20,175 nucleotides of DNA, taken from the IMG/VR virus record IMGVR_UViG_3300028178_000027, positions 1-20,175 of that record; one strand, given 5' to 3'. Below, piece after piece: positions 2,883-20,175 of the stretch. The stretch is from a virus. Position 1 is the first letter of the stretch, and the number at the start of each line of letters is the position of its first letter. The translations under genes and the position numbers were made by a program. Below the pieces are notes generated by a model. The model searched no databases and was not told the DNA's origin. It saw only the letters and a program-made list of their open reading frames with translations.

Positions 2883-3835
2883 TTTCTAAGCCCAATAATT
2901 GCCCCGCGGATATTATCCCCATAAAATAAACAAGGGCTTGGCCAAGCAGTAAAATCAATTGTATCTGCAACTTCAAGAACTGTTAATAAATGTTGACGGT
3001 TAAAAGAACCATCGTTTACTATATCTTCGATAAAATATTCTGCCCCACCATCGTCAGTTTCTGATGTTGATATTCGACCTTCTTTAAATAGGTTTACTCT
3101 ATCAAACGTATCTGTAAATGGTTTTAAATCCTCAAGACATTGCACTAATAATTTTGGAAACTTAGACTGGATTGATTCTTTATTTAACACGTTAGCAAGG
3201 TCTGGCCATTCTGTACTATACGTTTGACTGCATAGCCAACGATTACCACTAAAATGAAATGTGATTCTATTTTCACTTACTTGCAAATATTCGGGCTCTT
3301 CGTTAATTCGGATAAGCTCGCTAATAGCTGCTTTCGGGACGTTGACTGTAATTGGAAAATCAAAACCAAGCCATGACTCTACAAGAGCAATATTATTTGT
3401 CGCATACGCAGACTGCCCTTTAAATAATATACCACGAGACCAAGCCCGTGAAGCGTCCTCTGATATAAATGGTGAAATACTTTTAATCGCTTGCAATAGT
3501 TTTCCATTTAATGCTACTTTTTCACCTTCGGGTGTAATTTCTGGATAGTTTTCTGGCGGTAAGCAATCAACCAGTGCTTTAAAGTTCCCTGACTTAATAC
3601 TAAGTTTTCCTTTAGCTGTTACATGAAGTGCAATAACATCTTCGCACGTTTGAATAGCTTTCATAAACTGCTCGGCTTTAGGTGTAATGTCTAAATCCAT
3701 GTCAATTGGGCCACATAGGCCAATTGTTCCATTAAACCCCTTGATTGTTTTATTAGCAATTCTAAAATGGGTTAAGCCTTGAACAATTTCTTTTTTGCCA
3801 ACTGCCCCAGCAACAAACTTTAAGTCTTTAAGCAT
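2879..3835 (-). CDS. DnaN-like DNA polymerase sliding clamp
   Basis: The 318-residue product looks like a divergent beta-clamp, the ring that tethers the polymerase to DNA. Support is weak in single motifs but consistent along the length: ALVDCLPPENYPEI (87-100) resembles the clamp segment leading to the 'FP' turn; AYATNNIALVES (143-154) matches the 'A-T-D/N-x-x-R/L' strand; the segment at 187-215 ends in a clamp-like W/YPDL; and the C-terminus ends in a short strand and LRK like the clamp's 'MPMR' end. It is shorter than E. coli DnaN (366 residues). Its position between dpdA and the polymerase, with TAATG overlap upstream and ATGA overlap downstream, fits a processivity factor. An alternative is an unrelated phage protein of the same fold. 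Confidence 0.72.
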   Translation of the reverse strand: MLKDLKFVAGAVGKKEIVQGLTHFRIANKTIKGFNGTIGLCGPIDMDLDITPKAEQFMKAIQTCEDVIALHVTAKGKLSIKSGNFKALVDCLPPENYPEITPEGEKVALNGKLLQAIKSISPFISEDASRAWSRGILFKGQSAYATNNIALVESWLGFDFPITVNVPKAAISELIRINEEPEYLQVSENRITFHFSGNRWLCSQTYSTEWPDLANVLNKESIQSKFPKLLVQCLEDLKPFTDTFDRVNLFKEGRISTSETDDGGAEYFIEDIVNDGSFNRQHLLTVLEVADTIDFTAWPSPCLFYGDNIRGAIIGLRK

Positions 3836-4755
3836 TAAAATAACTCCTGAACATAAGCTTTGAATATTTTACTTTGTTTAGCGTTCACTATTGCATTTAT
3901 CATACCATATGACCAAAGATTATAAGCAGCACGAGACTCATATATTGTGGATAACCGTTCGTAGGTAAAACCCTGCTCTTCTAGCATTTTAAAAAGAGCG
4001 TCCTGCTCAATAGCACTTAATGTCGTAGCGTGTTGGTTTTGGACGTGCCTAGATGGCGACTTGCTTGAAACAGAAATTGGGCCATACTTTGGAGTAACAA
4101 TACTACCAAACGCAGCGGACTGAATCCATGAAGACGAGTCCACACTATACCACGGATACCGTTGCATAACAGGAATAGCAGTAATACCAAAAGCATGAAC
4201 CTTAAGTCTTGGTTTCCCGCTTGAATCTGTTAAATACTCGTCCCATAGTTTATCTAACCAACGAATAAGGACATCGCTAGACTTTCCAACCATACCACCA
4301 AGAGTGATATAATCGTAATTTTTTACATAGTATTCTAAATAACGGTTATCCTCGCCATAATGGAAGCACGGCAATGGTCTAACACCTAGCTCTTGCATTG
4401 ACATTTGATTTCTATATGTTTGTAATGGGTCGCCAATTCCATCCAAAACAGAAGCCATAACAGCACCATCTTCAACTCGGATTATATCTCCGTTTCGTTT
4501 AATATAATCGCAATATGTTGGTAAATCAATTTCTACACCTAAAGTGAATGCTGAGAATGCGCCAGAGTCAAGAAATACTTTTGCGTTATCCGCCCTCATT
4601 TCGTCAACATATTTTTGTTTGTCAACATAATGGTATGACTCTAAAATGTTAGGTAAATTCCGGACAAGGGATTGCTCATGCTCTGTTAGCTTTAAATACC
4701 GATTTTGCCCGGGCTTATACCCGTTACCATAAACAGCGGCAACAAATAGATTCAT
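3835..4755 (-). CDS. dpdA: DpdA-like 7-deazaguanine DNA transglycosylase
   Basis: This 306-residue protein belongs to the phage branch of the tRNA-guanine transglycosylase superfamily that acts on DNA, exchanging guanine for a 7-deazaguanine base. Three aspartate sites align in order with those of TGT: FLDSGAFSA (D63), corresponding to the substrate-binding DSGGFQ site; VLDGIGDP (D105); and YSVDSSSW (D206), in the place of the nucleophile. LGGMVG (152-157) and HAFGIT (187-192) also match the TIM-barrel core. The C-terminus has no CxCxxC zinc motif, unlike bacterial TGT, and the protein has only two cysteines. The gene is next to folE, queD, queC and queE, which make the base, and only one base separates it from the folE stop. 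Its own ribosome binding site is weak, so translation probably depends on coupling. Confidence 0.88.
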   Translation of the reverse strand: MNLFVAAVYGNGYKPGQNRYLKLTEHEQSLVRNLPNILESYHYVDKQKYVDEMRADNAKVFLDSGAFSAFTLGVEIDLPTYCDYIKRNGDIIRVEDGAVMASVLDGIGDPLQTYRNQMSMQELGVRPLPCFHYGEDNRYLEYYVKNYDYITLGGMVGKSSDVLIRWLDKLWDEYLTDSSGKPRLKVHAFGITAIPVMQRYPWYSVDSSSWIQSAAFGSIVTPKYGPISVSSKSPSRHVQNQHATTLSAIEQDALFKMLEEQGFTYERLSTIYESRAAYNLWSYGMINAIVNAKQSKIFKAYVQELF

Positions 4756-4756
4756 T

Positions 4757-5695
4757 TTAGTTACGGCAAGCTGCTAAAAACTCAGCCCGTGTTTCTGGTT
4801 TTGTTTTCATTGCTCCGCGCAATGCTGTAGTAATTGTTTCACTACTTTGATTACCAACACCACGGGATTCAATACACATATGACGCGCTGTTAAGTAAAC
4901 ACCAACACCAATCGGGTTCAAGTGTTCCCACATTGCATTCGCTATTTGGTTTGTTAAACGCTCTTGGACTTGTAACCGTCTTGAAAAGACTTCTACAATT
5001 CTATCCATTTTAGATAAGCCCAATACTTTTTTATCAGGAATATAAGCAACGGTCACAAAACCAAAAATAGGAGCAATATGATGCTCGCAATGGCTATAGA
5101 CAGGGATATTTCTACGAATAACCATTTCATCCGAGTCCTCAGCTCCATCTTCGAAACTTTTAAAAATGGATTTGATATCGCTGTCTGAATACTTATATCC
5201 ACTAAACCACTCACCGAGTGCTTTTTGGTATCTTTTAGGAGTTTCCAGCAAACCTTGACGATTTGGATTTTCTCCAATATATTGAAATACCCGTACAACA
5301 TTATCAGTAAAGCTTTCGTCCGAGTTTTCATGTGAAACCTCCCAAGGAAATACAAACCAGCCATTTCGATACTCGTTTTTAAGGGTAATATCTCCCTTTT
5401 CAATTAAAGTAAAGAATGGTTTTTGTGGATATAAATCGCAGTAATGCTGCATTGTTTTTCCGCTGTCTAAAATATCATCAATGAAAAAATCAGCTTCGCT
5501 TGGATTTTCGGTAATCTTAAAGTCAATATATTTACGGATAGCATACATTGCGGGAATACCACCGCGAGGAATAGCATACGCTTTTAGATTTGAAATAAGA
5601 CTTTTATTTGATTCATAAATACTATAAATCTGGCCAGCAGTACGTTCTGCTAAGGATTGTAAAATATCATTTGTAATAATTGTTTTATTTGTCAT
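4757..5695 (-). CDS. folE: Phosphoribosyltransferase-GTP cyclohydrolase I fusion
   Basis: The C-terminal half (about residues 131-312) is a GTP cyclohydrolase I, which opens GTP to dihydroneopterin triphosphate, the first step to preQ0. It has the GLLETPKR entry motif (148-155), zinc-site SHCEHH (201-206; C203, H206) and RHMCIESRGV (271-280; C274), so it should be an active zinc enzyme. The N-terminal 120 residues are a phosphoribosyltransferase domain with AIPRGGIP (41-48), PRPP loop FIDDILDSGKT (71-81) and WFVFPWE (113-119), the last resembling the end of Gpt-type purine enzymes. I chose ATG at 5695: it has AAGG nine bases upstream and lies just after the queD stop. The longer frame from 5740 overlaps queD and lacks a ribosome binding site. 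The fusion is unusual; its N-terminal substrate is unknown. Confidence 0.9.
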   Translation of the reverse strand: MTNKTIITNDILQSLAERTAGQIYSIYESNKSLISNLKAYAIPRGGIPAMYAIRKYIDFKITENPSEADFFIDDILDSGKTMQHYCDLYPQKPFFTLIEKGDITLKNEYRNGWFVFPWEVSHENSDESFTDNVVRVFQYIGENPNRQGLLETPKRYQKALGEWFSGYKYSDSDIKSIFKSFEDGAEDSDEMVIRRNIPVYSHCEHHIAPIFGFVTVAYIPDKKVLGLSKMDRIVEVFSRRLQVQERLTNQIANAMWEHLNPIGVGVYLTARHMCIESRGVGNQSSETITTALRGAMKTKPETRAEFLAACRN

Positions 5696-5699
5696 TGTC

Positions 5700-6152
5700 T
5701 TAAACCTTAAATGAAGCGTGGCATTTAGCAGTTTCTTCAATAACTACTTTTTGCAAAGTAACACCAGTGCCAAGTAGTTGCTGAGGGCCAATTACTTGAA
5801 CTAAATATTGGCACATATTTTCAGCAGTCGGGTTGAATGGTACAAACACAATAGACTCGGAAAATATTAACTGTTCCGCTGGTTCTAGAAAAGCGGTTTC
5901 TTTAAGGCCTTTAATAAGACTATCGTTTTCCCATGCTAGGAACTTGTGATCCCAATTATTCTCGACCCACATACATAACTTTTCTTTAATAACAGAAAAA
6001 TCAATAACACGCCCTAAGCTGTCTAACTCGCCAACACATTCAAAATGAATACGGTAATTATGCCCATGCAAATGGCGACATTTATTTTCATGCCCAACTA
6101 CACGATGTCCACAACTAATATCGTGGTATCTCATTGCTTTTGTTCCGCTCAT
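5700..6152 (-). CDS. queD: QueD 6-carboxytetrahydropterin synthase
   Basis: This 150-residue enzyme of the PTPS/QueD family converts dihydroneopterin triphosphate, the FolE product, to 6-carboxy-5,6,7,8-tetrahydropterin in the preQ0 pathway. The zinc ligands are H16, H29 and H31, with the catalytic cysteine C25 in CRHLHGHN (25-32). FNPTAENM (about 106-113) and VIEETAKCHASF near the C-terminus (with the family's conserved Glu) complete the signature. The CxxxHGH arrangement marks QueD rather than eukaryotic PTPS. Its start codon overlaps the stop of the upstream 52-aa gene as ATGA, and GAGGTG lies just before it, so both coupling and a direct site are available. Length is normal for the longer QueD subgroup. 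Confidence 0.93.
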   Translation of the reverse strand: MSGTKAMRYHDISCGHRVVGHENKCRHLHGHNYRIHFECVGELDSLGRVIDFSVIKEKLCMWVENNWDHKFLAWENDSLIKGLKETAFLEPAEQLIFSESIVFVPFNPTAENMCQYLVQVIGPQQLLGTGVTLQKVVIEETAKCHASFKV

Positions 6153-6307
6153 AAAGTCACCTCTTTTCCGTTTATAATAAATGTTGATGGGAGTAAATGG
6201 TTACAGCGTGAAAACGCCTTTATATAACCCATAATTTCAGATTGGACTGCTGAGGAATATGGGATTATACTTTTTGGTTTTGTCTTTGGTGTACCACGGA
6301 TAGCCAT
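6149..6307 (-). CDS. 52-aa protein of unknown function in the preQ0 operon
   Basis: This 52-codon frame begins at the ATG ending at 6307 (protein starts MAIRGTPKTKPKS) and stops at 6149. It has a strong ribosome binding site (AAAGGA, 6-base spacing). It fills exactly the gap between queC and queD: its start is two bases from the queC stop, and its stop overlaps the queD start as ATGA. That fit is the main evidence that it is a real gene. The product is basic at the N-terminus (residues 4-13), with a central helix-like stretch (about 20-40) and one cysteine. I recognise no family. Its position suggests a role linked to deazaguanine synthesis or to DpdA, or merely a translational relay to queD. 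Confidence 0.75.
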   Translation of the reverse strand: MAIRGTPKTKPKSIIPYSSAVQSEIMGYIKAFSRCNHLLPSTFIINGKEVTL

Positions 6308-6309
6308 AA

Positions 6310-7104
6310 CTAATCCTTTCCTATTAAATACTCAACCGTATAGTTTGCTGATTTTGGTAATTCCATTAAGCCGTTGCGAACTGCTCGCATAACCAATGGA
6401 TCTGGAAAACCAGCTTCAAGGAAGCCTTGCGCTCGTAATACATTTGCATGGTTATTATCGCTTGGAGGGTACTTCCCGTCGTAGCTAGTATGCGTGTAAG
6501 CTAATGCTTCCCAGCAGCCTGGAAATGTGCGAGCTAGGCGTACTGTTTCCGCTTTAGACATATACATTAACGGTGTTAGTATTCTAACAACACCTGTTCC
6601 ACGATGGTCGTGGCCAAGTGCAGTATTGATATAATCTTCTGCTTTTGTAATAAATATGTCACGGCAATCGTCGTAATTAGCATTATCCATTTGGCAAACA
6701 CCAGTAACGATATTCTTAATACCTTTTGCTTCCGCTCTATTGGCTGCAATTGTTAAAAATAGTGCGTTACGCATTGGGACAAATGTTAATTCACGGCGAT
6801 TCCCAATTGTGGAATCCATTTGCTCAAAGTTATCGTATTTTTCTAATTCAATGCCTGGATTAGTTAATGGGGACATTGAAATTAAGCATTCCGGAACTTT
6901 AATAATTTCATGGTTATTAACACCTGCTATTTCTGCAACTTGGACGGCTGCTTTTATTTCAATTGCGTGTTTTTGCCCATAGTCGAAAGTAATTGCATGA
7001 ACCTCTTTAAATGTTTCTTTAGCCCAGAAAAGGCAAGTTGTTGAATCTTGCCCACCAGACAAAACAACAATAACAGACTCTTGTTTCAATCGTGCTATAT
7101 TCAT
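6310..7104 (-). CDS. queC: QueC-like preQ0 synthase lacking zinc cysteines
   Basis: This 264-residue PP-loop ATPase of the QueC family converts 7-carboxy-7-deazaguanine to preQ0 with ATP and ammonia, through an amide intermediate. The ATP-binding motif SGGQDS (16-21), FDYGQKH (40-46), FVPMRNALFLT (108-118) and TGVCQMD with YDDCRD (134-149) all match the family. The C-terminal zinc site does not: where E. coli QueC has TCYNG and a CxxCxxC cluster, this protein has TSYDG (206-210) and S215, N218 and N221. All four cysteines appear to be replaced while the flanking LRAQGF (223-228) remains aligned. It may fold without zinc, use D216 and H219, or have altered chemistry. It overlaps queE by one base (TAATG) and has no fused amidotransferase domain. 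Confidence 0.88.
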   Translation of the reverse strand: MNIARLKQESVIVVLSGGQDSTTCLFWAKETFKEVHAITFDYGQKHAIEIKAAVQVAEIAGVNNHEIIKVPECLISMSPLTNPGIELEKYDNFEQMDSTIGNRRELTFVPMRNALFLTIAANRAEAKGIKNIVTGVCQMDNANYDDCRDIFITKAEDYINTALGHDHRGTGVVRILTPLMYMSKAETVRLARTFPGCWEALAYTHTSYDGKYPPSDNNHANVLRAQGFLEAGFPDPLVMRAVRNGLMELPKSANYTVEYLIGKD

Positions 7105-7796
7105 TATTCTACTCCTATTAGTTTATGAACTTGGATACATAAGATATAATTATGCCGCATAACAGAACGTTTAGCAACGTCTAGGTTGAGGTTATTTTGA
7201 TGCACACTTTTGCTATCTTCAGGTTGAATATAAACAAGGGATCCTTGCGGTGCTTTAAATACGGAACCACTGTTCGGATGACCAAGTGCAACTAAAGGCA
7301 ACCCATCTATATCCACACTATCGCTGTTCACAACATATTTGTAAGCATAAATATGTTCTTTTAATTTTTTGTTAATTTCGCCTGTTTTTGGACTGCAAAT
7401 AATATAAACATTTCTATTCAGTTCTTGGAACAATGTCCCATTTGTTTCAATTTGGACAAGATACCCGCTAGATATTAAAATATCAGTTAATGGTACTAAA
7501 TTTTGTCTAAACGGCTCACCTCCAGTAATAACAATGAGTCTTCGTTTTGTTATATCAGCTGGTAGGTCTTTATGCAGTTGATGTATTTTATCAAGAATAG
7601 CAGACACGGGCATTAAAGAACGTTTTGTATATTCTGTATCACAATCAGGACATTGTAAATTGCAACCAGCTAAACGAATAAAGACAGCTGGCATACCAGA
7701 AAATATACCTTCCCCCTGAATTGTGTAAAAAATAGAATTTACTTGTAATGCACCGCTTACGGAAATGTCGCGGTTTTCGGGAAATTGATTATTCAT
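7104..7796 (-). CDS. queE: QueE 7-carboxy-7-deazaguanine synthase
   Basis: This 230-residue radical-SAM enzyme contracts 6-carboxytetrahydropterin to 7-carboxy-7-deazaguanine. The cluster motif CNLQCPDC (C45, C49, C52) binds the 4Fe-4S centre. FYTIQGEG (23-30) is the family's N-terminal signature, ITGGEP (about 90-95) is the SAM-binding motif, and ETNGT follows at about 117-121. It is the first gene of the operon, with AAGGA seven bases before ATG and an extended -10 promoter about 30 bases upstream. The terminator of the preceding transcription unit sits just behind that promoter. Length and motifs are normal. Confidence 0.93.
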   Translation of the reverse strand: MNNQFPENRDISVSGALQVNSIFYTIQGEGIFSGMPAVFIRLAGCNLQCPDCDTEYTKRSLMPVSAILDKIHQLHKDLPADITKRRLIVITGGEPFRQNLVPLTDILISSGYLVQIETNGTLFQELNRNVYIICSPKTGEINKKLKEHIYAYKYVVNSDSVDIDGLPLVALGHPNSGSVFKAPQGSLVYIQPEDSKSVHQNNLNLDVAKRSVMRHNYILCIQVHKLIGVE

Positions 7797-7822
7797 AATT
7801 AAATCCTTGGTTTAGAACTTTT

Positions 7823-7831
7823 ATTATACCA
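7823..7831 (-). promoter_or_regulatory. Extended -10 promoter of the queE-polB operon
   Basis: On the minus strand TGG precedes a perfect TATAAT (7823-7828), giving an extended -10. No good -35 is seen 16-18 bases upstream. Transcription would begin near 7816, leaving about 20 bases to the queE ATG. It is the only clear promoter before the chain of coupled genes ending at 834. Confidence 0.65.
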
Positions 7832-7867
7832 ACCATTGCATTAAACGGCCAGTAATATTGTATGAAA

Positions 7868-7890
7868 TAAAAAGCCCCAATTAAGGGGCT
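7868..7890 (-). terminator. Rho-independent terminator after the 7972-8409 gene
   Basis: AGCCCC (7873-7878) pairs with GGGGCT (7885-7890) around a 6-base loop. On the minus strand the stem is followed by TTTTTATTT. It ends the transcription unit of the two paralogous genes about 80 bases past the stop at 7972 and insulates the queE promoter downstream. The bases 7891-7971 hold no gene. Confidence 0.85.
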
Positions 7891-7971
7891 GCCAATATGG
7901 GTAAGGGCTTGGTAGCAAAGGCTTTTACACTATTATCCGACTTACGTCCAGCTTCAAGGAACCCTTATTTA

Positions 7972-8409
7972 TTACTCAGCCGCTGCCGCTTCTTTTACTG
8001 CCTTAGCTTTTTTAGGCTCTTTAACTGGTTTTTCTTTAACCACTTTATTTGGGTTAGGGATTGTGCCAGTTACACCATGGAATTTACGCCAGCGAGCATA
8101 TTGTGTCGCAGTTGTTGCAGGGTTTACGCCAACTTCAGCAGATGCAGTCAATACTTCTTCGCGTGATGGAACACGTTGTAGCGATGCTGATAAATTGTCG
8201 CAAACTAACCAAACCTTACCAGTTTCGCTATCTGCTTTAGGGCGTGAAATGCCATTTTGTTCAACTTTTTCAACCTTAGCTGACTCTTTTGCTGCCATCT
8301 TAGCTGCTTTTTCGGCTTCTTTATCCGCTTTCTTTTTAGCTGCTGCCGCTTCTTTTACTGCCTTAGCTGCTTCTTTATCTTCTTTACTTGGTTTTTGTAC
8401 TTCTGCCAT
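7972..8409 (-). CDS. Ala/Lys-rich protein with small HTH-like domain
   Basis: This 145-residue protein has a strongly basic, alanine-rich N-terminus (residues 8-50, predicted helical), a compact central domain (55-113) and a basic tail (120-145). The central domain starts SRPKADSETGKVW and ends NPATTATQYARWRKF. The same pattern occurs in residues 150-210 of the adjacent gene product, so the two are paralogues in this domain. The fold is plausibly a small helix-turn-helix or winged-helix type. Histone-like flanks and this domain suggest binding to DNA, perhaps packaging or condensing early phage DNA, but that is inference. The start has AAGGAG with 6-base spacing. A 27-base exact DNA repeat encodes the KAVKEAAAA motif at both ends. 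Confidence 0.8.
   Translation of the reverse strand: MAEVQKPSKEDKEAAKAVKEAAAAKKKADKEAEKAAKMAAKESAKVEKVEQNGISRPKADSETGKVWLVCDNLSASLQRVPSREEVLTASAEVGVNPATTATQYARWRKFHGVTGTIPNPNKVVKEKPVKEPKKAKAVKEAAAAE
7982..8368 (-). repeat. 27-bp exact direct repeat at both ends of one gene
   Basis: Bases 7982-8008 and 8342-8368 are identical over 27 bases and lie exactly 360 bases (120 codons) apart in the same frame. Both encode the residue string KAVKEAAAA, near the N-terminus and the C-terminus of the 145-aa protein. Identity at third codon positions points to a recent duplication rather than convergent composition. Confidence 0.9.
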
Positions 8410-8473
8410 GATAATCTCCTTGACTTGGTTTACATTAAATTAAAAATTTGAAACGAAATATCAGTGTAACTCA

Positions 8474-9118
8474 CTATTTATTATCTGTCAATACGTTTTT
8501 AGCTTTCCATTTACTAAATTGAACACTAAACGTTGACGCGCTTTGACCTTCCTGAGTGACAAACTCGTTAAACGCTTTATTGCGTAACTCTTTAAGGTCA
8601 ATGCCCTCTACATTATATTTATCTAAAATTTCCCACACAAGGGCTGTTGTTGAACCAGTACGCGGTCTATCTACTTCTTGTTTTGGTGTGCTTGGATCTT
8701 TTGGTTGTCTTGGTTCTCTTGGTTCACGTTTTTGTTTTGGTTCTTTTGGTGGTTTAACTGTTTCAACCGAACCAATAGTACCAGTAAATCCATAACCTGT
8801 TAGTGTTGCTTCTAAAGCACCAATATTGACATCGGTTAATTGCATTTTTTCAGCTTCAGTAATGCACATTTTAACAAGTGTTGCATAATCATCGCTTGGG
8901 ACTAAACTAAATGTATTCCAGAAAATATATTGTAACATCTTCAAATCAAACTTACTAAAGCCACGCCCCTCTAATGGCGGTGCAGAACAGTGTTGGCCTG
9001 GATGCTCGCACATATAAACCTGCCCAAGCAACGTTGCTTCGTTTAATGGAGCAACATATAGAATTTTTGATTCTTCAATATTAGTGTCACGTACTACCAT
9101 GTATAATTGTTTTGCCAT
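8474..9118 (-). CDS. Phage protein with HTH-like C-terminal domain
   Basis: This 214-residue protein has three parts. Residues 1-115 form a compact N-terminal region with CEHPGQHC (37-44), whose cysteines and histidines could bind a metal, and hydrophobic helices at about 58-95. Residues 120-148 are a Pro/Lys/Arg-rich linker of KEP and REP repeats. Residues 150-210 form a domain (DRPRTGSTTALVWEIL to VQFSKWKAK) that matches the central domain of the neighbouring 145-aa protein. A DNA-binding role is likely from the basic linker and the HTH-like end. The N-terminal part is of unknown family. A good ribosome binding site (AAGGAG) and a promoter at 9148-9175 precede it, so the pair can be expressed separately from the upstream recombination operon. 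Confidence 0.8.
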   Translation of the reverse strand: MAKQLYMVVRDTNIEESKILYVAPLNEATLLGQVYMCEHPGQHCSAPPLEGRGFSKFDLKMLQYIFWNTFSLVPSDDYATLVKMCITEAEKMQLTDVNIGALEATLTGYGFTGTIGSVETVKPPKEPKQKREPREPRQPKDPSTPKQEVDRPRTGSTTALVWEILDKYNVEGIDLKELRNKAFNEFVTQEGQSASTFSVQFSKWKAKNVLTDNK

Positions 9119-9147
9119 TTTTATCTCCTTGCTTAATTGATGTTCCC

Positions 9148-9175
9148 ATTATCTACTATCTAATTTTAATGTCAA
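9148..9175 (-). promoter_or_regulatory. Sigma70-type promoter for the paralogue pair
   Basis: On the minus strand a perfect TTGACA (9170-9175) is followed after 16 bases by GATAAT (9148-9153). It lies in the 72-base gap between the 9191-9415 gene and the gene starting at 9118. It is the strongest consensus promoter in the window. Confidence 0.75.
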
Positions 9176-9190
9176 ATATTTAATTGAATA

Positions 9191-9415
9191 CTAGAAAGGT
9201 AAACCCGCTTCCCAATTTTCAACACCACAAGAAAACATTAAAGTTTCTATAGGAGGCCTTGATTTAAACTTTTGACAAATTTCTGTTTTTAATTCAAAGT
9301 TTGTGCAATTCATACAACATGGAAAAGAGTCATTATAGACTAAGCATTTGTGGAGAGCAATCCCCGCTTGTTTACGAAGTTTCATTTCTATAGTTACATC
9401 ATTATTGGTACTCAT
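9191..9415 (-). CDS. Small Cys-rich phage protein, possible zinc binder
   Basis: This 74-residue protein has six cysteines, with CCMNC (33-37), C47 and C63 spaced as in a small zinc-binding domain. RPP (53-55) and the ending ENWEAGLPF resemble small conserved phage proteins of unknown role. The acidic, aromatic C-terminus ending in LPF recalls the tip of bacterial SSB proteins (DDIPF), which recruits replication partners; this is a resemblance only. It overlaps the end of the helicase gene by 14 bases and has GGAG about 10 bases before its ATG, so it is the last gene of the recombination operon. No terminator was seen after it. Confidence 0.75.
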   Translation of the reverse strand: MSTNNDVTIEMKLRKQAGIALHKCLVYNDSFPCCMNCTNFELKTEICQKFKSRPPIETLMFSCGVENWEAGLPF

Positions 9416-11060
9416 GGTTTAATATCTCCGGATGTTCTTTATTTAACCAAACTCGAATTCTTTTTGGTTTTCTTAAAATGTCAATGTTCAATATTGCTTC
9501 GTCCACTGTATTTGGTGTCCAATTGTCGTTGGCAGCATACCTCCACCAATCACGCGCTTTCTTAGATGGAAATCCACTATGCTCAATGCAAACAAACTCT
9601 GTAAATAACCTAAGTCCGCAACTATACGTTACTTTTAAACTCGGTATCTCTGTATTTTTAGATATATGTTTTTTATAAACAACCCTATCTACAGAAAATA
9701 CATCGCTTACTGTCATATCGCTAGACGCTGCAATTAACTCGTTTGTCGATGCGGTTGCTTTGACTTTATAAAACCTTGGAAACTCTGTACCACATTGCTC
9801 GCAAAAACGAACTCCGGCTGGGTTATAGCACATACAAGCATCGCATATTTTAACAGGAGCGTCCCCTTTACCCTTGCTTCTTGGTTGAGGAATTACAGGG
9901 TCGTTAATAGGGCCAAGTCTTCTAGTATTCCCTGCAAAATCTAAAACTAGACAATTTTGTTTTTGGCTTGTTGCAATAGATGCAAGGCGTTCTTCTTTTG
10001 TTGTTAATGGATAACCAACCTCATAGCAAGGCCTTGTTCCGCGCCCTAGCATTTGCACCCAAAGAGAAGCTGACATAGTTAGTCTAAGCATTGCGATAAG
10101 GTCTATTTGTGGGCAATCAAAACCCGTAGTTAAAATACCATTGTTCACCATTGCTGTATATTTACCTGCTTTAAAATCTGCAATATTATTATCGCGTTCT
10201 TTTTCTGGCATTTTTGAATGAACGTATGTAACAGATATATCCATCCCTTGCAACATTTCATAAATATGAATAGCATGGTCAACTCCTGTTGAAAATACTA
10301 ACCAACTTCTTCTATTTTGAGCAGTTGCATATTGAACAAGCTCGGCGCAAGCTTGGTATGTAATCTCGTTTTTATCAATAGCTTCTTGGGCATCCTTATC
10401 CACAAATTCGCCACCCCGTATTTTAATCTTAGAGGTATCTACTTCAAGCATTGGTTTTTTAGGAATAAGTGGAACTAAATAACCCTCTTGAATAAACCAA
10501 TTAAAAGAGTCTTTCTTACTCATATCTACAGCAACATCTGTAAAAATATGCCCTTCGTTTGTCAGTTTGCCATGCCCCTGCCTATAGTCTGTTGCGGTAA
10601 GACCAATTACTTTAAGATAAGGATTGATTTTCTTTAAATCGTTAATTAGTTTCACATACATTGTTTCTTCTCTTGGTGAAACTAAATGCGCTTCATCAAT
10701 TAAAAGAATATCAACATACCCAAATAATTTCAAATCTTCTTTAACAACAGAAGCAACTCCACCAAATGTAATTGGGTTAAATGTGTCCCTTTGATGTAAC
10801 CCTGCTGAATAAATGCCAACGGGGGCAGTTGGCCAAATAGCTAACAGTTTTTCATAATTCTGCTGAATTAACTCTTTAACATGGGTTAATAGCATTATTT
10901 TTGTATTCGGATAATTATGCAATGCTTCTTTACAAAAGCCTGCAATCACTAAGCTTTTACCCGTGCCAGTTGGCATAACAACTAAAGGGTTTCCGGAGTA
11001 ACTTATAAAGTAATCAAAAATAGACTTTACAGCGTATTCTTGGTAATCACGGAGCTTCAT
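9402..11060 (-). CDS. RadD-like SF2 helicase with zinc ribbon
   Basis: This 552-residue superfamily 2 ATPase has motif I MPTGTGKS (29-36), motif II DEAH (122-125), motif III LTAT (154-157) and motif VI QMLGRGTRP (336-344). After the two RecA-like domains comes a four-cysteine zinc ribbon (C406, C409, C420, C423). The remaining C-terminal region (430-552) is aromatic and basic. The order, helicase core then zinc ribbon, matches RadD/YejH, which helps process recombination intermediates together with SSB. The start overlaps the nuclease stop by 4 bases (ATGA), so the two are co-translated and likely act on the same DNA substrates. A role as replicative helicase is less likely because the primase-helicase at 16783 fills that place. 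Confidence 0.88.
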   Translation of the reverse strand: MKLRDYQEYAVKSIFDYFISYSGNPLVVMPTGTGKSLVIAGFCKEALHNYPNTKIMLLTHVKELIQQNYEKLLAIWPTAPVGIYSAGLHQRDTFNPITFGGVASVVKEDLKLFGYVDILLIDEAHLVSPREETMYVKLINDLKKINPYLKVIGLTATDYRQGHGKLTNEGHIFTDVAVDMSKKDSFNWFIQEGYLVPLIPKKPMLEVDTSKIKIRGGEFVDKDAQEAIDKNEITYQACAELVQYATAQNRRSWLVFSTGVDHAIHIYEMLQGMDISVTYVHSKMPEKERDNNIADFKAGKYTAMVNNGILTTGFDCPQIDLIAMLRLTMSASLWVQMLGRGTRPCYEVGYPLTTKEERLASIATSQKQNCLVLDFAGNTRRLGPINDPVIPQPRSKGKGDAPVKICDACMCYNPAGVRFCEQCGTEFPRFYKVKATASTNELIAASSDMTVSDVFSVDRVVYKKHISKNTEIPSLKVTYSCGLRLFTEFVCIEHSGFPSKKARDWWRYAANDNWTPNTVDEAILNIDILRKPKRIRVWLNKEHPEILNHEYQ

Positions 11061-16415: not shown

Positions 16416-16444
16416 ATATTAACAAAGTATTTTAGGTATGTAAA
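16416..16444 (-). promoter_or_regulatory. Leftward early promoter
   Basis: On the minus strand TTTACA (16439-16444) is followed after 17 bases by TAATAT (16416-16421), 32 bases before the ATG at 16383. The -35 overlaps the left arm of the dyad at 16443-16472, so a protein bound there could block it. Confidence 0.5.
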
Positions 16445-16472
16445 GGACTATTATACTTTTACGATAGTCCTT
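16443..16472. promoter_or_regulatory. 9-bp dyad, candidate operator of the divergent promoters
   Basis: AAGGACTAT (16443-16451) is repeated in perfect inverse as ATAGTCCTT (16464-16472), with arm centres 21 bases (two helical turns) apart. The left arm overlaps the -35 of the leftward promoter and the right arm overlaps the -35 of the rightward promoter. This symmetry suits a dimeric repressor, possibly the Cro-like protein encoded next door. Confidence 0.65.
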
Positions 16473-16499
16473 GCTATTTAAAATTTTATTTGCTAAAGT
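16471..16499 (+). promoter_or_regulatory. Rightward early promoter
   Basis: TTGCTA (16471-16476) is followed after 17 bases by TAAAGT (16494-16499), preceded by TGC as in an extended -10. It lies 35 bases before the regulator ATG at 16534. An alternative -10, TATACT (16452-16457), has no matching -35. Confidence 0.45.
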
Positions 16500-16533
16500 A
16501 CACACCTCACCCACCTTTAATGGACTTTATAAA

Positions 16534-16767
16534 ATGGAAACACCTGTAGTTAAAGATATGCTAAACTGCGACAAGCCAAGCTCGCTTATTATTAAAACCA
16601 AAGAACTATTAACAAATGATGCTCGCTCTTTACTTGAAATCCATAGAGCGTCCGGCATTCCTTTTTATTGGTTACAGAAATTTAGTTCTAAGCATTTTGA
16701 TAACCCATCAGTAAACCGAGTACAATATTTATACGAGTTTTTGACAAATTCACAACTAACCTTTTAA
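16534..16767 (+). CDS. Cro/CI-like HTH regulator
   Basis: The 77-residue product has a helix-turn-helix core at about 25-72: LLTNDARSLLEIHRASGIPFYWLQKF, then NPSVNRVQYLYEFL. It strongly resembles the small XRE-type DNA-binding proteins of phages (RLAEIAREtGIPY-WLqKF pattern). It probably represses or activates the divergent promoters through the dyad at 16443-16472. The reading frame is open further upstream from a TTG at 16471, but the ATG at 16534 is chosen because it gives the family's usual length and leaves the dyad free. Its ribosome binding site is weak. It is followed after 15 bases by the primase-helicase, so it would be co-transcribed with replication genes and could set their timing. 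Confidence 0.8.
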   Translation: METPVVKDMLNCDKPSSLIIKTKELLTNDARSLLEIHRASGIPFYWLQKFSSKHFDNPSVNRVQYLYEFLTNSQLTF

Positions 16768-16782
16768 TTTTAAAGGGAAATC

Positions 16783-19023
16783 ATGTTAAGTAATATCCCT
16801 TTAGAGCTGAGGTTATTGCCTCAATGGGTTTGCGCTGGTGATGACAAAATACCAGTAAACCCAATTACAAAAGCGCAAGCTGATGTTACAAATCCATCAA
16901 CATGGTCAACTTTTGAAAATGCTGTAGCTGCTGGGTATAAACACGTTGGATTCGTTTTGTCAAAAAACGACCCATATTGTATTATTGACTTAGACAACAA
17001 ACCAGATAGACAGCTATCCCAAACCGAAATTGATATCCACAATAGAATTCTAGCAGCCTTCCCGAGCTACATTGAAAAAAGTGCAAACGGTTTAGGGTTT
17101 CACATTATTATTAAAGGACATTTGCCAAAAGGTAGAAGGAGGCAAAGCGTAGAGGCATATTCTAGCGAACGCTATATGATTTGTACTGGTAATGTTGCTC
17201 TAAATTTACCTATTACAGACTGTCAAGAAACGTTAGTCCAACTTGTTGCAGAAATGACAACAACTGCTGAACCAACTAAACTCGTCCAACACAATAGCGA
17301 AATACCAGATTCCATTATTGTTGAAAAAGCGTCTAATGCAAGCAATGGTGAAAAGTTTGATAAGCTATGCAATGGTGACTGGCAGAACGATTACCAATCC
17401 CAAAGCGAAGCGGACTTTGCACTGATGTCTATTATTTGCTTTTATACAAAAGATAATGAACAGTGCCGCCGAGTTTTCAGAACTACACAATTGGGAAAAC
17501 GGGATAAAGCCCAGCGGGATTCTTACCTTGACTACGCACTATCTAAAATCAGGGGGAATGAACCTCCGCCAATTGATCTAACTGCGTTAATTGAAAACGC
17601 TGCTAGAATGGAAGAAGAGAATAGAGCAAAACTAGAACTGGTTGAGCCAATTGTAGAAGAAGAGGAATACCTCTTTATACCACTAGAAAATCAAGACTTG
17701 CAATATCAAATCCCGCCTGGAATTGTGGGTGAGCTAACTAAGTTCTTTTATGGAACAGCGGTTAGACCTGCTTATGAAATTGCGTTAGCTTCAGCATTGT
17801 CTATTATGGCTGGGATCACGGGTCGTGCATATAATATCAGCGGGACTGGTTTGAACCATTATATCATATTGTTAGCAAGGACTGGTTCAGGTAAGGAAGG
17901 AGCAGCGCAGGGTATTGAAAAACTAATTAACGCAACAAGACCGCAAATTCCATCCATTGACAGCTTTATTGGGCCTGCTGTATTTAGTTCAGGGCAAGCT
18001 TTAATTAAAATGCTAGGGGAGAAGCCTTGCTTTGTAAGCGTTCTAGGGGAGTTTGGTTTAACGTTACAACAAATATCCCATCCCCGTGCAACAAGCTCTG
18101 AAAAAACACTTAAAAAGGTATTGCTAGACCTTTTTAATAAATCTGGAAAAAAAGATGTTCTACGTGGTTCTGTTTATAGCGACACTGATAAAAATACAAA
18201 AGCGGTTCAATCCCCAGCGGTGACAATTTTTGGTGAAAGTACACCCGAGTCCTTTTTTGAAGGTTTAGACGTTTCAAATATTGCGGAAGGGTTAATCCCC
18301 CGTTTTACAATTGTTGAATATACTGGCAAAAGACCACCAATGAATGACAATCCAGTATCTGAACCAAGTATGGATTTAATCAAAGCATTCTCGAATATTG
18401 TAGCTCAATCTTTAACCTTACAAAATAAACTAGCAACTATTGATGTTAAGATCTCCCCTGAAGCGGAGCTTGTCTTAAAAGCGTACTGCAAATATGCAGA
18501 TAAAGTGATGAATAGTGCGAACAATGAAGTAGAAATGCAATTGTGGAATCGCGCTCATTTAAAGGCATTGAAAACCGCGGCAGTTCTTGCAGTTGGTTTA
18601 AATTATATAGAACCAATAATAACACTAGAATGCGCTAATTGGGCAATGCGTTTTATAGACCAAGATATTAAATCAATATCCCACCGTTTTTCAATTGGGG
18701 ATATTGGGGTTGGCGATTCTAAACAAAGAGCAGATATAAAGAAAATAATTGCAACATATAAACTTGACCAAAAAGCTACGTCTGCATACAAAGTGATTCC
18801 ACAAATGCAACGTGATTATATTATTCCTCTTGGTTATTTATCTCGCCGCTGCCTTGCTTTAACTTCATTTAGGAACGACAGGCTTGGGGCAAACCGCGCA
18901 CTGTCCGAAACGATTCGCAATATGGTTGAGCAAAGTATGCTTGTTGAAATACCAATTCCGCAAATAAAAGAAAAGTATGGTGTTGACTGGAAATGCTACG
19001 GAGTAGGAAGTATGTTCTACTAA
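16783..19023 (+). CDS. Primase-polymerase fused to DUF3987 helicase
   Basis: This 746-residue protein combines two functions. Residues 1-160 are an archaeo-eukaryotic-type primase/polymerase domain: IIDLDNK with D69 and D71, KSANGLGFH (99-107) with its conserved His, and VEAYSSERYMICTG (123-136). Residues about 195-257 (DWQNDYQSQSEADFAL... RDSYLDYALSKIRG) form the C-terminal primase helical part. Residues about 310-600 are a DUF3987-type RecA-like helicase with a Walker A loop ARTGSGKEG (365-373), in which Glu follows Lys instead of Ser or Thr. It likely primes and unwinds phage DNA with the polymerase and clamp encoded at the far left. AAAGGG precedes the ATG. There is no sign of truncation. 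Confidence 0.9.
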   Translation: MLSNIPLELRLLPQWVCAGDDKIPVNPITKAQADVTNPSTWSTFENAVAAGYKHVGFVLSKNDPYCIIDLDNKPDRQLSQTEIDIHNRILAAFPSYIEKSANGLGFHIIIKGHLPKGRRRQSVEAYSSERYMICTGNVALNLPITDCQETLVQLVAEMTTTAEPTKLVQHNSEIPDSIIVEKASNASNGEKFDKLCNGDWQNDYQSQSEADFALMSIICFYTKDNEQCRRVFRTTQLGKRDKAQRDSYLDYALSKIRGNEPPPIDLTALIENAARMEEENRAKLELVEPIVEEEEYLFIPLENQDLQYQIPPGIVGELTKFFYGTAVRPAYEIALASALSIMAGITGRAYNISGTGLNHYIILLARTGSGKEGAAQGIEKLINATRPQIPSIDSFIGPAVFSSGQALIKMLGEKPCFVSVLGEFGLTLQQISHPRATSSEKTLKKVLLDLFNKSGKKDVLRGSVYSDTDKNTKAVQSPAVTIFGESTPESFFEGLDVSNIAEGLIPRFTIVEYTGKRPPMNDNPVSEPSMDLIKAFSNIVAQSLTLQNKLATIDVKISPEAELVLKAYCKYADKVMNSANNEVEMQLWNRAHLKALKTAAVLAVGLNYIEPIITLECANWAMRFIDQDIKSISHRFSIGDIGVGDSKQRADIKKIIATYKLDQKATSAYKVIPQMQRDYIIPLGYLSRRCLALTSFRNDRLGANRALSETIRNMVEQSMLVEIPIPQIKEKYGVDWKCYGVGSMFY

Positions 19024-19087: not shown

Positions 19088-19372
19088 ATGCAAGGCTTAA
19101 CAGTATTGGAAGCAACAGGCAGAACTGAGTTAGAACTACTAACCAGTACGCAAGAAGAACGCACTAAAATAAAAGCAATTTTGCAAGATAAGAATTTTAA
19201 TAATTCCGTCTTAATTGTGGATGCTGTGTTTAACCGTCAATTCGCAATCGTTCAAACTTTACTTGGTATTGAAGCAATGAATAGAAGTCACGGCTACATG
19301 ACAACTGAAATGCAAGAGTTTAGACGTTTTCTTAAACAACAAATTGATAACGGAACTAACAATCATGGATAA
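19088..19372 (+). CDS. 94-aa phage protein of unknown function
   Basis: The 94-residue product is mostly helical by composition and has no cysteines. It has a charged middle (TSTQEERTKIKAILQDK at about 19-35), a hydrophobic stretch SVLIVDAVFNRQFAIVQTLL (40-59) and a charged C-terminus. The middle stretch is amphipathic rather than membrane-like. It has GGAG with 8-base spacing and its own promoter, so it is likely an early gene. I recognise no family. Its last bases overlap the start of the next small gene by 8 bases. Confidence 0.75.
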   Translation: MQGLTVLEATGRTELELLTSTQEERTKIKAILQDKNFNNSVLIVDAVFNRQFAIVQTLLGIEAMNRSHGYMTTEMQEFRRFLKQQIDNGTNNHG

Positions 19373-19514
19373 TGTTTTTAGTATTGTAACAAAAGAAGCC
19401 CTTGACCGCCTTAAAGAGCGTGAAAAACAAGCGTCAATGAGGGAAGCCCAAGAACGTAACGAAGCTAAATGGAAAGCTATTGAAGAACAGGAAAAACAAA
19501 ATGTCAAATACTAA
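19365..19514 (+). CDS. 49-aa highly charged helical protein
   Basis: This 49-codon frame starts at the ATG of 19365 and overlaps the preceding gene by 8 bases and the following gene by 14. The product (starting MDNVFSIVTK) is rich in Lys, Glu, Arg and Gln from residue 10 on and would form one long helix or coiled coil with a single Trp. Evidence is positional: it bridges two small genes in an operon with overlaps typical of phages. Its ribosome binding site is weak, so it needs coupling. Function unknown. Confidence 0.6.
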   Translation: MDNVFSIVTKEALDRLKEREKQASMREAQERNEAKWKAIEEQEKQNVKY

Positions 19515-19737
19515 TTTTACATACGAAACAGTAAATGATAATGATGAACCAATAAGCTGGGAAGTTTCATGCAATGTATCATATGAGCAAGACCCATACG
19601 GAACAGGTGATAGCCCGGGCGAGTGGTCTGTTGAAGATATTAAAGTAGTAACTGAATCTGGCGTATTATACGAAGGCGATATCTCAGATTATCATATAGA
19701 ACAAATCATACAAAAAGCAATAATTGAAAATCACTAA
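19501..19737 (+). CDS. 78-aa acidic phage protein
   Basis: The 78-residue product is acidic, with alternating hydrophobic strands (ISWEVSCNVSYEQ at about 16-28), SPGEWSVEDIKVV (38-50) and a short C-terminal helix. The pattern 'SPGEW-VEDI' with a beta-strand followed by 'YEGDISDYHIEQIIQKAI' resembles small phage proteins of unknown function. I use ATG at 19501, which has AGGA about 9 bases upstream; the longer frame begins with a non-ATG codon. It is the last gene before the repeat-rich region. Confidence 0.7.
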   Translation: MSNTNFTYETVNDNDEPISWEVSCNVSYEQDPYGTGDSPGEWSVEDIKVVTESGVLYEGDISDYHIEQIIQKAIIENH

Positions 19738-19846
19738 GCCTTCATGCACTTTTGGAAATGAATAGCCTTCGTAGCTTTTTGATTTATTTCCAAACAAACA
19801 AGCCTTCATAGCTTTTTGAAATCAGTAAGCCTTCATGCACTTTTGA
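19736..19846. repeat. Four 20-bp direct repeats, A-B-B-A
   Basis: Copies begin at 19736, 19763, 19800 and 19827. Copies 1 and 4 read AAGCCTTCATGCACTTTTG plus one base; copies 2 and 3 are (T/A)AGCCTTC(G/A)TAGCTTTTTGA. Start-to-start spacing is 27, 37 and 27 bases, so a 64-base unit is effectively doubled. Copy 1 overlaps the stop codon of the preceding gene. A 9-bp inverted repeat, TTTGGAAAT (19751-19759) and ATTTCCAAA (19786-19794), encloses copy 2. Confidence 0.85.
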
Positions 19847-20175
19847 TTTTTGTGCATTTTCCTACCGTGTTGAACAGTTGCCTATAAAAGAGGCACTTTA
19901 CAAGTGTTTAAAATTTAGGCAGTTGTTTACTAATTGCCTAAAAAATAAGCAAACCCTACCAAACGTTCACAATCACATTTTAAAGCGTTTTTACCTGTTA
20001 GCCATATACTATGTTGACCAACATTAAAATATTGCGTTATACAGCGATTATGATTGCCTAATTTTTAAGCAGTTTAGCACAGGCTGCTTTATTAACAAAA
20101 TGAACTTGTGAAGTTATTTAAAATAAATCATCATAAATGGCAAAATAGTGCTGGCATTATTTTATTAAGCGAGTA
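19738..20175. other. Gene-free, AT-rich, repeat-dense region
   Basis: No convincing coding frame of any size is present after the stop at 19737. The region holds the four 20-bp repeats, the TTGCCTA elements and a weak hairpin, AAGCAG (20067-20072) with CTGCTT (20084-20089). It lies just behind the primase-helicase operon. Candidate roles are an origin with iterons, a control region, or the 3' end of the early transcript; the sequence does not decide between them. It continues past the window edge. Confidence 0.7.
19878..20071. repeat. Three 18-bp dyad-like TTGCCTA elements plus one inverted half-site
   Basis: TTGCCTATAAAAGAGGCA (19878-19895), TTGCCTAAAAAATAAGCA (19934-19951) and TTGCCTAATTTTTAAGCA (20054-20071) share the outer bases and have A/T-rich centres. 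The reverse half-site TTTAGGCA (19914-19921) faces TGCCTAAA (19935-19942) as a perfect 8-bp inverted repeat. The pattern looks like binding sites for a dimeric protein. Confidence 0.75.

Follow-up and report, generated by a model that had tools for sequence, protein, structure and literature searches.

Iteron-like repeats behind a PrimPol-MCM gene as a candidate phage replication origin

Does the gene-free DNA at the right-hand end of this viral sequence, with its four ordered repeats, serve as the replication origin of the phage, and is the primase-helicase encoded nearby the protein that acts on it? The window analysed here is the whole 20,175-base IMG/VR record, which is probably a fragment and ends within the gene-free stretch, 330 bp past the repeats. 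No relative of the window was found at the DNA level. The question was approached through the repeats themselves, the proteins encoded beside them, and the homologous position in viral contigs that carry a related primase gene.

Repeats and hairpin of the gene-free stretch

The sequence-only reading had described an A-B-B-A series of repeats with spacings of 27, 37 and 27 bases, and this series is real, with units of 19 nt (Table 1). All four copies are found on the + strand in a single orientation, pointing in the direction of transcription. The repeats exceed chance: the consensus pattern matches 4 times, whereas shuffled sequences average 0.23 matches (four or more in 0 of 100 shuffles), and scoring of 9-mer repeats gives 19 for the 111-bp repeat region, compared to a shuffle mean of 0.13 (reached in 0 of 1000) and above the score of every other 111-bp stretch of the record. 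A weight matrix run over the record gave 26-29 bits for the four copies and 11.7 for the next best site. Both the repeats and their uniqueness in the record are direct observations. Dispersal at many gene ends, which had been named as a sign of a transcription role, is not seen within the 20-kb record, as the four copies occupy one stretch. A reading as coding repeats was rejected because the spacing of 37 breaks the reading frame. A weak reverse-strand repeat core (GCCTTCGT) is present at 19670, within the 77-aa ORF gene.

Table 1. Features of the replication region (positions in the window)
Feature	Position	Strand	Remarks
Small HTH protein ORF	16471..16767	+	true start probably an internal ATG, giving about 77 aa
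PrimPol (NrS-1 type) with MCM-like AAA+ helicase and predicted C-terminal winged helix (about 641-746 aa)	16783..19023	+	proposed initiator
Three small ORFs (94, about 48 and 77 aa)	19088..19737	+	between PrimPol and repeats
Repeat copy 1, type A (AAGCCTTCATGCACTTTTG)	19736..19754	+	overlaps stop codon of 77-aa ORF
Repeat copy 2, type B (TAGCCTTCGTAGCTTTTTG)	19763..19781	+	in inverted-repeat loop
Repeat copy 3, type B (AAGCCTTCATAGCTTTTTG)	19800..19818	+	
Repeat copy 4, type A (AAGCCTTCATGCACTTTTG)	19827..19845	+	
Gene-free stretch, proposed origin	19738..20175	.	at least 438 bp, ends at record end
Inverted repeat TTTGGAAATGAAT / ATTTATTTCCAAA	19751..19794	.	13-nt arms 19751-19763 / 19782-19794, 18-nt loop
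Second repeat family TTGCCTA	19878, 19934, 20054; as TTAGGCA 19915	+; -	span 19878..20060

The inverted repeat noticed around copy 2 proved larger than the 9 bp claimed for it, with 12 of the 13 arm positions complementary (9 bp exact); the corresponding 44-nt DNA hairpin has a folding energy of -8.1 kcal/mol (z -2.8). The stretch was also borne out as gene-free up to the record end, as it contains no ORF of at least 50 aa. Its description as AT-rich holds (68%, compared to ~63% for the record) but only modestly, and in the DNA-stability profile its least stable 100-bp window is in the top 5% of the record without being the least stable overall. The location behind the primase operon likewise stands, but with three small ORFs in between and copy 1 overlapping the last stop codon; the repeats begin 713 bp past the primase stop. 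No relatives were found for these three ORFs; the product of the one that adjoins the repeats (19504-19734) is acidic. A second, shorter repeat family is concentrated in the same stretch, where TGCCTA occurs 4 times, versus 2 times across the other 19.7 kb. With regard to a layout of two-orientation repeats around an AT-rich tract, the AGCCTTC repeats run one way and the TTGCCTA repeats both ways, the AT-richness is modest, and the stretch is cut off by the end of the contig. The GC skew has a turning point near 17 kb, which is uninformative on the origin because the skew follows gene direction.

The PrimPol-MCM protein and the region behind its gene in relatives

The 746-aa product, labelled primase-helicase in the sequence-only reading, matches phage primase families. 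It combines an AEP PrimPol core with a helix-bundle domain (HBD) homologous to that of NrS-1 polymerase, the domain make-up of a PrimPol of the NrS-1 type (PF22763, NrS1-1_pol-like_HBD, 28.2 bits with a cut-off of 27.9; PDB 6a9w/7rr4, hmmsearch E about 1e-37; VIA Z 20 across about 235 residues). In a structure model with a mean pLDDT of 85.6, residues 312-640 resemble an MCM AAA+ motor (3f8t; Z 17.4, rmsd 3.6 over 249 residues). This domain make-up is directly established; the C-terminal 100 residues, modelled as helices followed by two strands, are read here as a putative winged helix. The small HTH gene is found immediately upstream of the PrimPol gene in most relatives as well, and its product could be a regulator or a co-initiator. 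A palindrome, AAGGACTAT-N12-ATAGTCCTT, at 16443-16472, in the promoter region from which the two operons diverge, is likely the operator of this gene, and is unrelated in sequence to the AGCCTTC repeats. The gene order is that of annotated relatives, whose primases are at most about 55% identical: SSB, Sak4-like, helicase and Cas4-like nuclease genes make up one of two divergent operons and HTH-PrimPol the other, an arrangement that may indicate a replication module of the Queuovirinae-like kind. Elsewhere in the window, positions 3835-7796 form a 7-deazaguanine DNA-modification block, with a QueD-like PTPS identified by Pfam and, by sequence inspection, QueC-like, QueE-like and DpdA-like proteins, as well as a GTP cyclohydrolase I fused to a phosphoribosyltransferase-like domain (4757-5740).

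A profile scan yielded 80 viral contigs as relatives, the nearest named phages being Variovorax VPv64, Stenotrophomonas Bhz54 and Pseudomonas PSASB_03, with about 51% primase identity. Ranked for repeats within each locus, the 700 bp behind the PrimPol gene came among the highest 5% at 21 of 69 loci, where about 3.5 would be expected. In a set of 25 loci with a RusA-like gene at the far border and a gap of less than 450 bp, 18 gaps had more repeats than dinucleotide shuffles; with near-duplicates removed, this was significant for 12/18 gaps, compared to 3/18 upstream control regions. The gene-free stretch of the window reached z 5.6 in the same shuffle test. These family-wide iteron clusters are seen directly, and typically consist of lineage-specific iterons of 7-10 bp, which in many cases surround an AT-rich tract and occur in both orientations. 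Isolates with such clusters include Kharn, VpKK5, Bhz54 and Shy, a phage of E. coli; the gap behind the primase gene is at about 34.9-35.2 kb in Shy (OR996328, host E. coli K-12) and at about 32.75-33.0 kb in Kharn, which infects Sphingomonas.

The iteron words vary from lineage to lineage (GGGGATAGGG, CGTCCTAAA, ACTTACA, GGGAACC, TTGGAAAT, GTTAACC, TATACAA and GTATAAGG), and several are largely confined to the gap: all seven copies of CGTCCTAAA in a 52-kb record, all five of TTACTTACA in a 42-kb record, five of six copies of GGGGATAGGG in Bhz54 (the sixth being in the divergent promoter), 4/5 of the Shy iteron, and 9/14 of GTTGTATR in Kharn. Two opposed iteron groups flank an AT-rich tract in L045, L005-L007 (L005 being Bhz54), L036 and Kharn. 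Intervening ORFs displace the iterons in L036, L021 and L043, as in the window; those of L036 (GTTAACC, both orientations, 8340-8620) are located about 1.1 kb behind PrimPol. A comparison of iteron words with protein regions, among them the C-terminal domain, gave at most a weak correlation and did not single out a domain that would read the iterons. No iterons were found behind the primase gene in 9g, NP1, AH03, SCUT-S4, L018, L020, L022, L025 and Loki. The relative closest by full-length PrimPol identity (54%), L012 (region 7234-9822), has no gap behind the gene, which is directly trailed by several opposite-strand genes, two of them methyltransferase-like; its origin must therefore be elsewhere. 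The gap of Bhz54 contains a perfect 77-nt tandem duplication including poly-T (7470-7623), either real or an assembly artefact; the unit is single-copy in PSASB_03 and VPv64.

None of the relatives carries the AGCCTTC repeat, and searches of the viral contigs with the paired pattern and the type A pattern gave zero matches outside the window. Because the repeat is absent from all other contigs, its conservation cannot be shown. The type B pattern matched in two unrelated contigs, which was judged to be chance; one match, in L101, is inside a coding sequence, with the opposite strand coding for a QKAMKA-type peptide.

A candidate origin and its alternatives

We propose that several copies of the PrimPol-MCM protein would attach to the repeats by way of the C-terminal winged helix, possibly assisted by the small HTH protein, and would assemble on the duplex into a ring or double ring. 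The protein could then melt the hairpin or AT-rich DNA close by, after which the NrS-1-type PrimPol domain would lay the first DNA strand. For the relatives, an origin behind the gene with a self-loading PrimPol-MCM protein is quite probable. For the window we infer that its repeats are its own version of these iterons, that the PrimPol-MCM protein is what binds them, and that replication begins in the stretch from 19736 onward, with a probability of roughly 0.6. The origin proposed in the sequence-only reading is favoured by the iteron clusters behind the homologous gene across the family and by precedents, but is the leading reading rather than a demonstrated one, because the rest of the genome is missing and the window's repeats are unshared, in one orientation and past three ORFs. 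Their length of 19 bp also sets them apart from the relatives' iterons, and together with their distance from the primase gene, the modest AT-richness and the relatives lacking iterons, this counts against an origin.

The orientation of the four copies, facing the direction of transcription in a stretch that precedes unseen rightward genes, would also suit operators or other transcription control of those genes by a DNA-binding protein such as the small HTH protein, or a regulatory RNA leader or terminator. Bhz54, PSASB_03 and VPv64 indeed carry one copy of their family iteron immediately ahead of the HTH gene, within the divergent promoter. However, the weight-matrix scan found no copy in the divergent promoter of the window, and no iterons precede the HTH gene in L045, L049, L023, L027 and L041. 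Neither an intrinsic terminator nor a promoter was predicted at the repeats (19736-19850), and no Rfam match or tRNA was found. As the copy number and two-armed layout in relatives fit an initiator better, we consider transcription control unlikely.

Somewhat less likely still is that the repeats are recent, functionless local duplications, left behind by recombination where the 77-aa ORF ends, with the true origin past the contig end. Copy 4 with its 8-nt leader is 96% identical to copy 1 over 27 nt, stop-codon context included, as local duplication would produce, and the repeats occur in no relative while the contig stops shortly after them. Yet the A-B-B-A alternation, with drifted spacers and a constant core, argues against simple duplication, as do the unrelated second family, present in both orientations in the same stretch, and the functional appearance of the relatives' iterons at the same position. 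A gene-free stretch with a hairpin and repeats might also be a packaging (pac/cos), partition or recombination site. This is very improbable, since in PSASB_03 more than 4 kb separate the homologous gap from the start of the large terminase gene, and the gap adjoins genes of replication and recombination, i.e. PrimPol and the RusA-like resolvase.

Implications and comparison with known systems

An iteron origin behind an initiator gene is of a known kind. In the literature searched, which covers the field in part, we found no description of a phage-wide PrimPol-MCM initiator with lineage-private iterons, leaving aside the repeats of phage MMDA13 as far as the available text of that report goes. 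It is a tentative and rather doubtful generalization that a large group of PrimPol-MCM phages keeps its origin behind the initiator gene and rewrites the iteron 'password' in each lineage, with each protein recognising its own origin. If true, private iterons would lead to replication incompatibility between co-infecting relatives, and the window would be an extreme form, with two long repeat types on one strand and a second family. Most phages of this broad group have no mapped origin, as far as the literature searched shows; a fixed position, lineage-private iterons and a single PrimPol-helicase initiator would predict the replication start in dozens of genomes. They would also provide a natural series of initiator-origin pairs for following how recognition codes diverge, with cultivated relatives that include Escherichia phage Shy.

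Among known systems, SaPI iterons lie directly behind rep and are recognised by the C-terminal domain of Rep, and in SCCmec the Cch2 helicase binds direct repeats, three iterons, behind its own gene (both as reviewed in PMC7581432). The four AGCCTTC copies have one trait of the SaPI/SCCmec type, at least three copies of a short repeat in non-coding DNA downstream of the initiator gene, although they are 713 bp and three small ORFs behind it. The likeness to SaPIs is in the position of short repeats behind an initiator gene of helicase type, whereas the protein described here is a PrimPol-MCM-like fusion, the phage looks lytic, and the repeats are longer, one-sided and only putatively bound. 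SCCmec shares the small number of repeats behind a helicase gene, but Cch2 belongs to the D5-type helicases and its polymerase-primase is a separate protein.

The PrimPol of NrS-1, which starts DNA de novo at the template word TTTGGTTA (PMC8718748), has the same PrimPol and HBD domains as the window protein, but the words in the window differ from this one, TTTGGAAAT being nearest and in look only. Sphingomonas phage MMDA13 has a long non-coding segment with four imperfect 12-bp repeats (TGCGTTAACCAT), and resembles the window in combining repeats, a primase-helicase and 7-deazaguanine genes; its repeats, however, are located between divergent gene blocks, and the available part of the report mentions no origin role for them (PMC7472734). 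The GTTAACC iteron of L036 resembles the MMDA13 repeat and, loosely, the NrS-1 word.

The crenarchaeal plasmid pRN1 has an operon of a small DNA-binding repressor and a PrimPol-helicase, with a required cis element just downstream (PMC4234260). The window has a comparable order of a small HTH protein gene, a PrimPol-helicase gene and a putative cis element downstream, but pRN1 uses a stem-loop of roughly 100 bp rather than iterons. A stem-loop of that size within about 170 bp of the PrimPol gene is not found in the window, whose 44-nt stem-loop is located 728 bp past the stop. The authors of the pRN1 study propose similar origins for some phages (PMC4234260).
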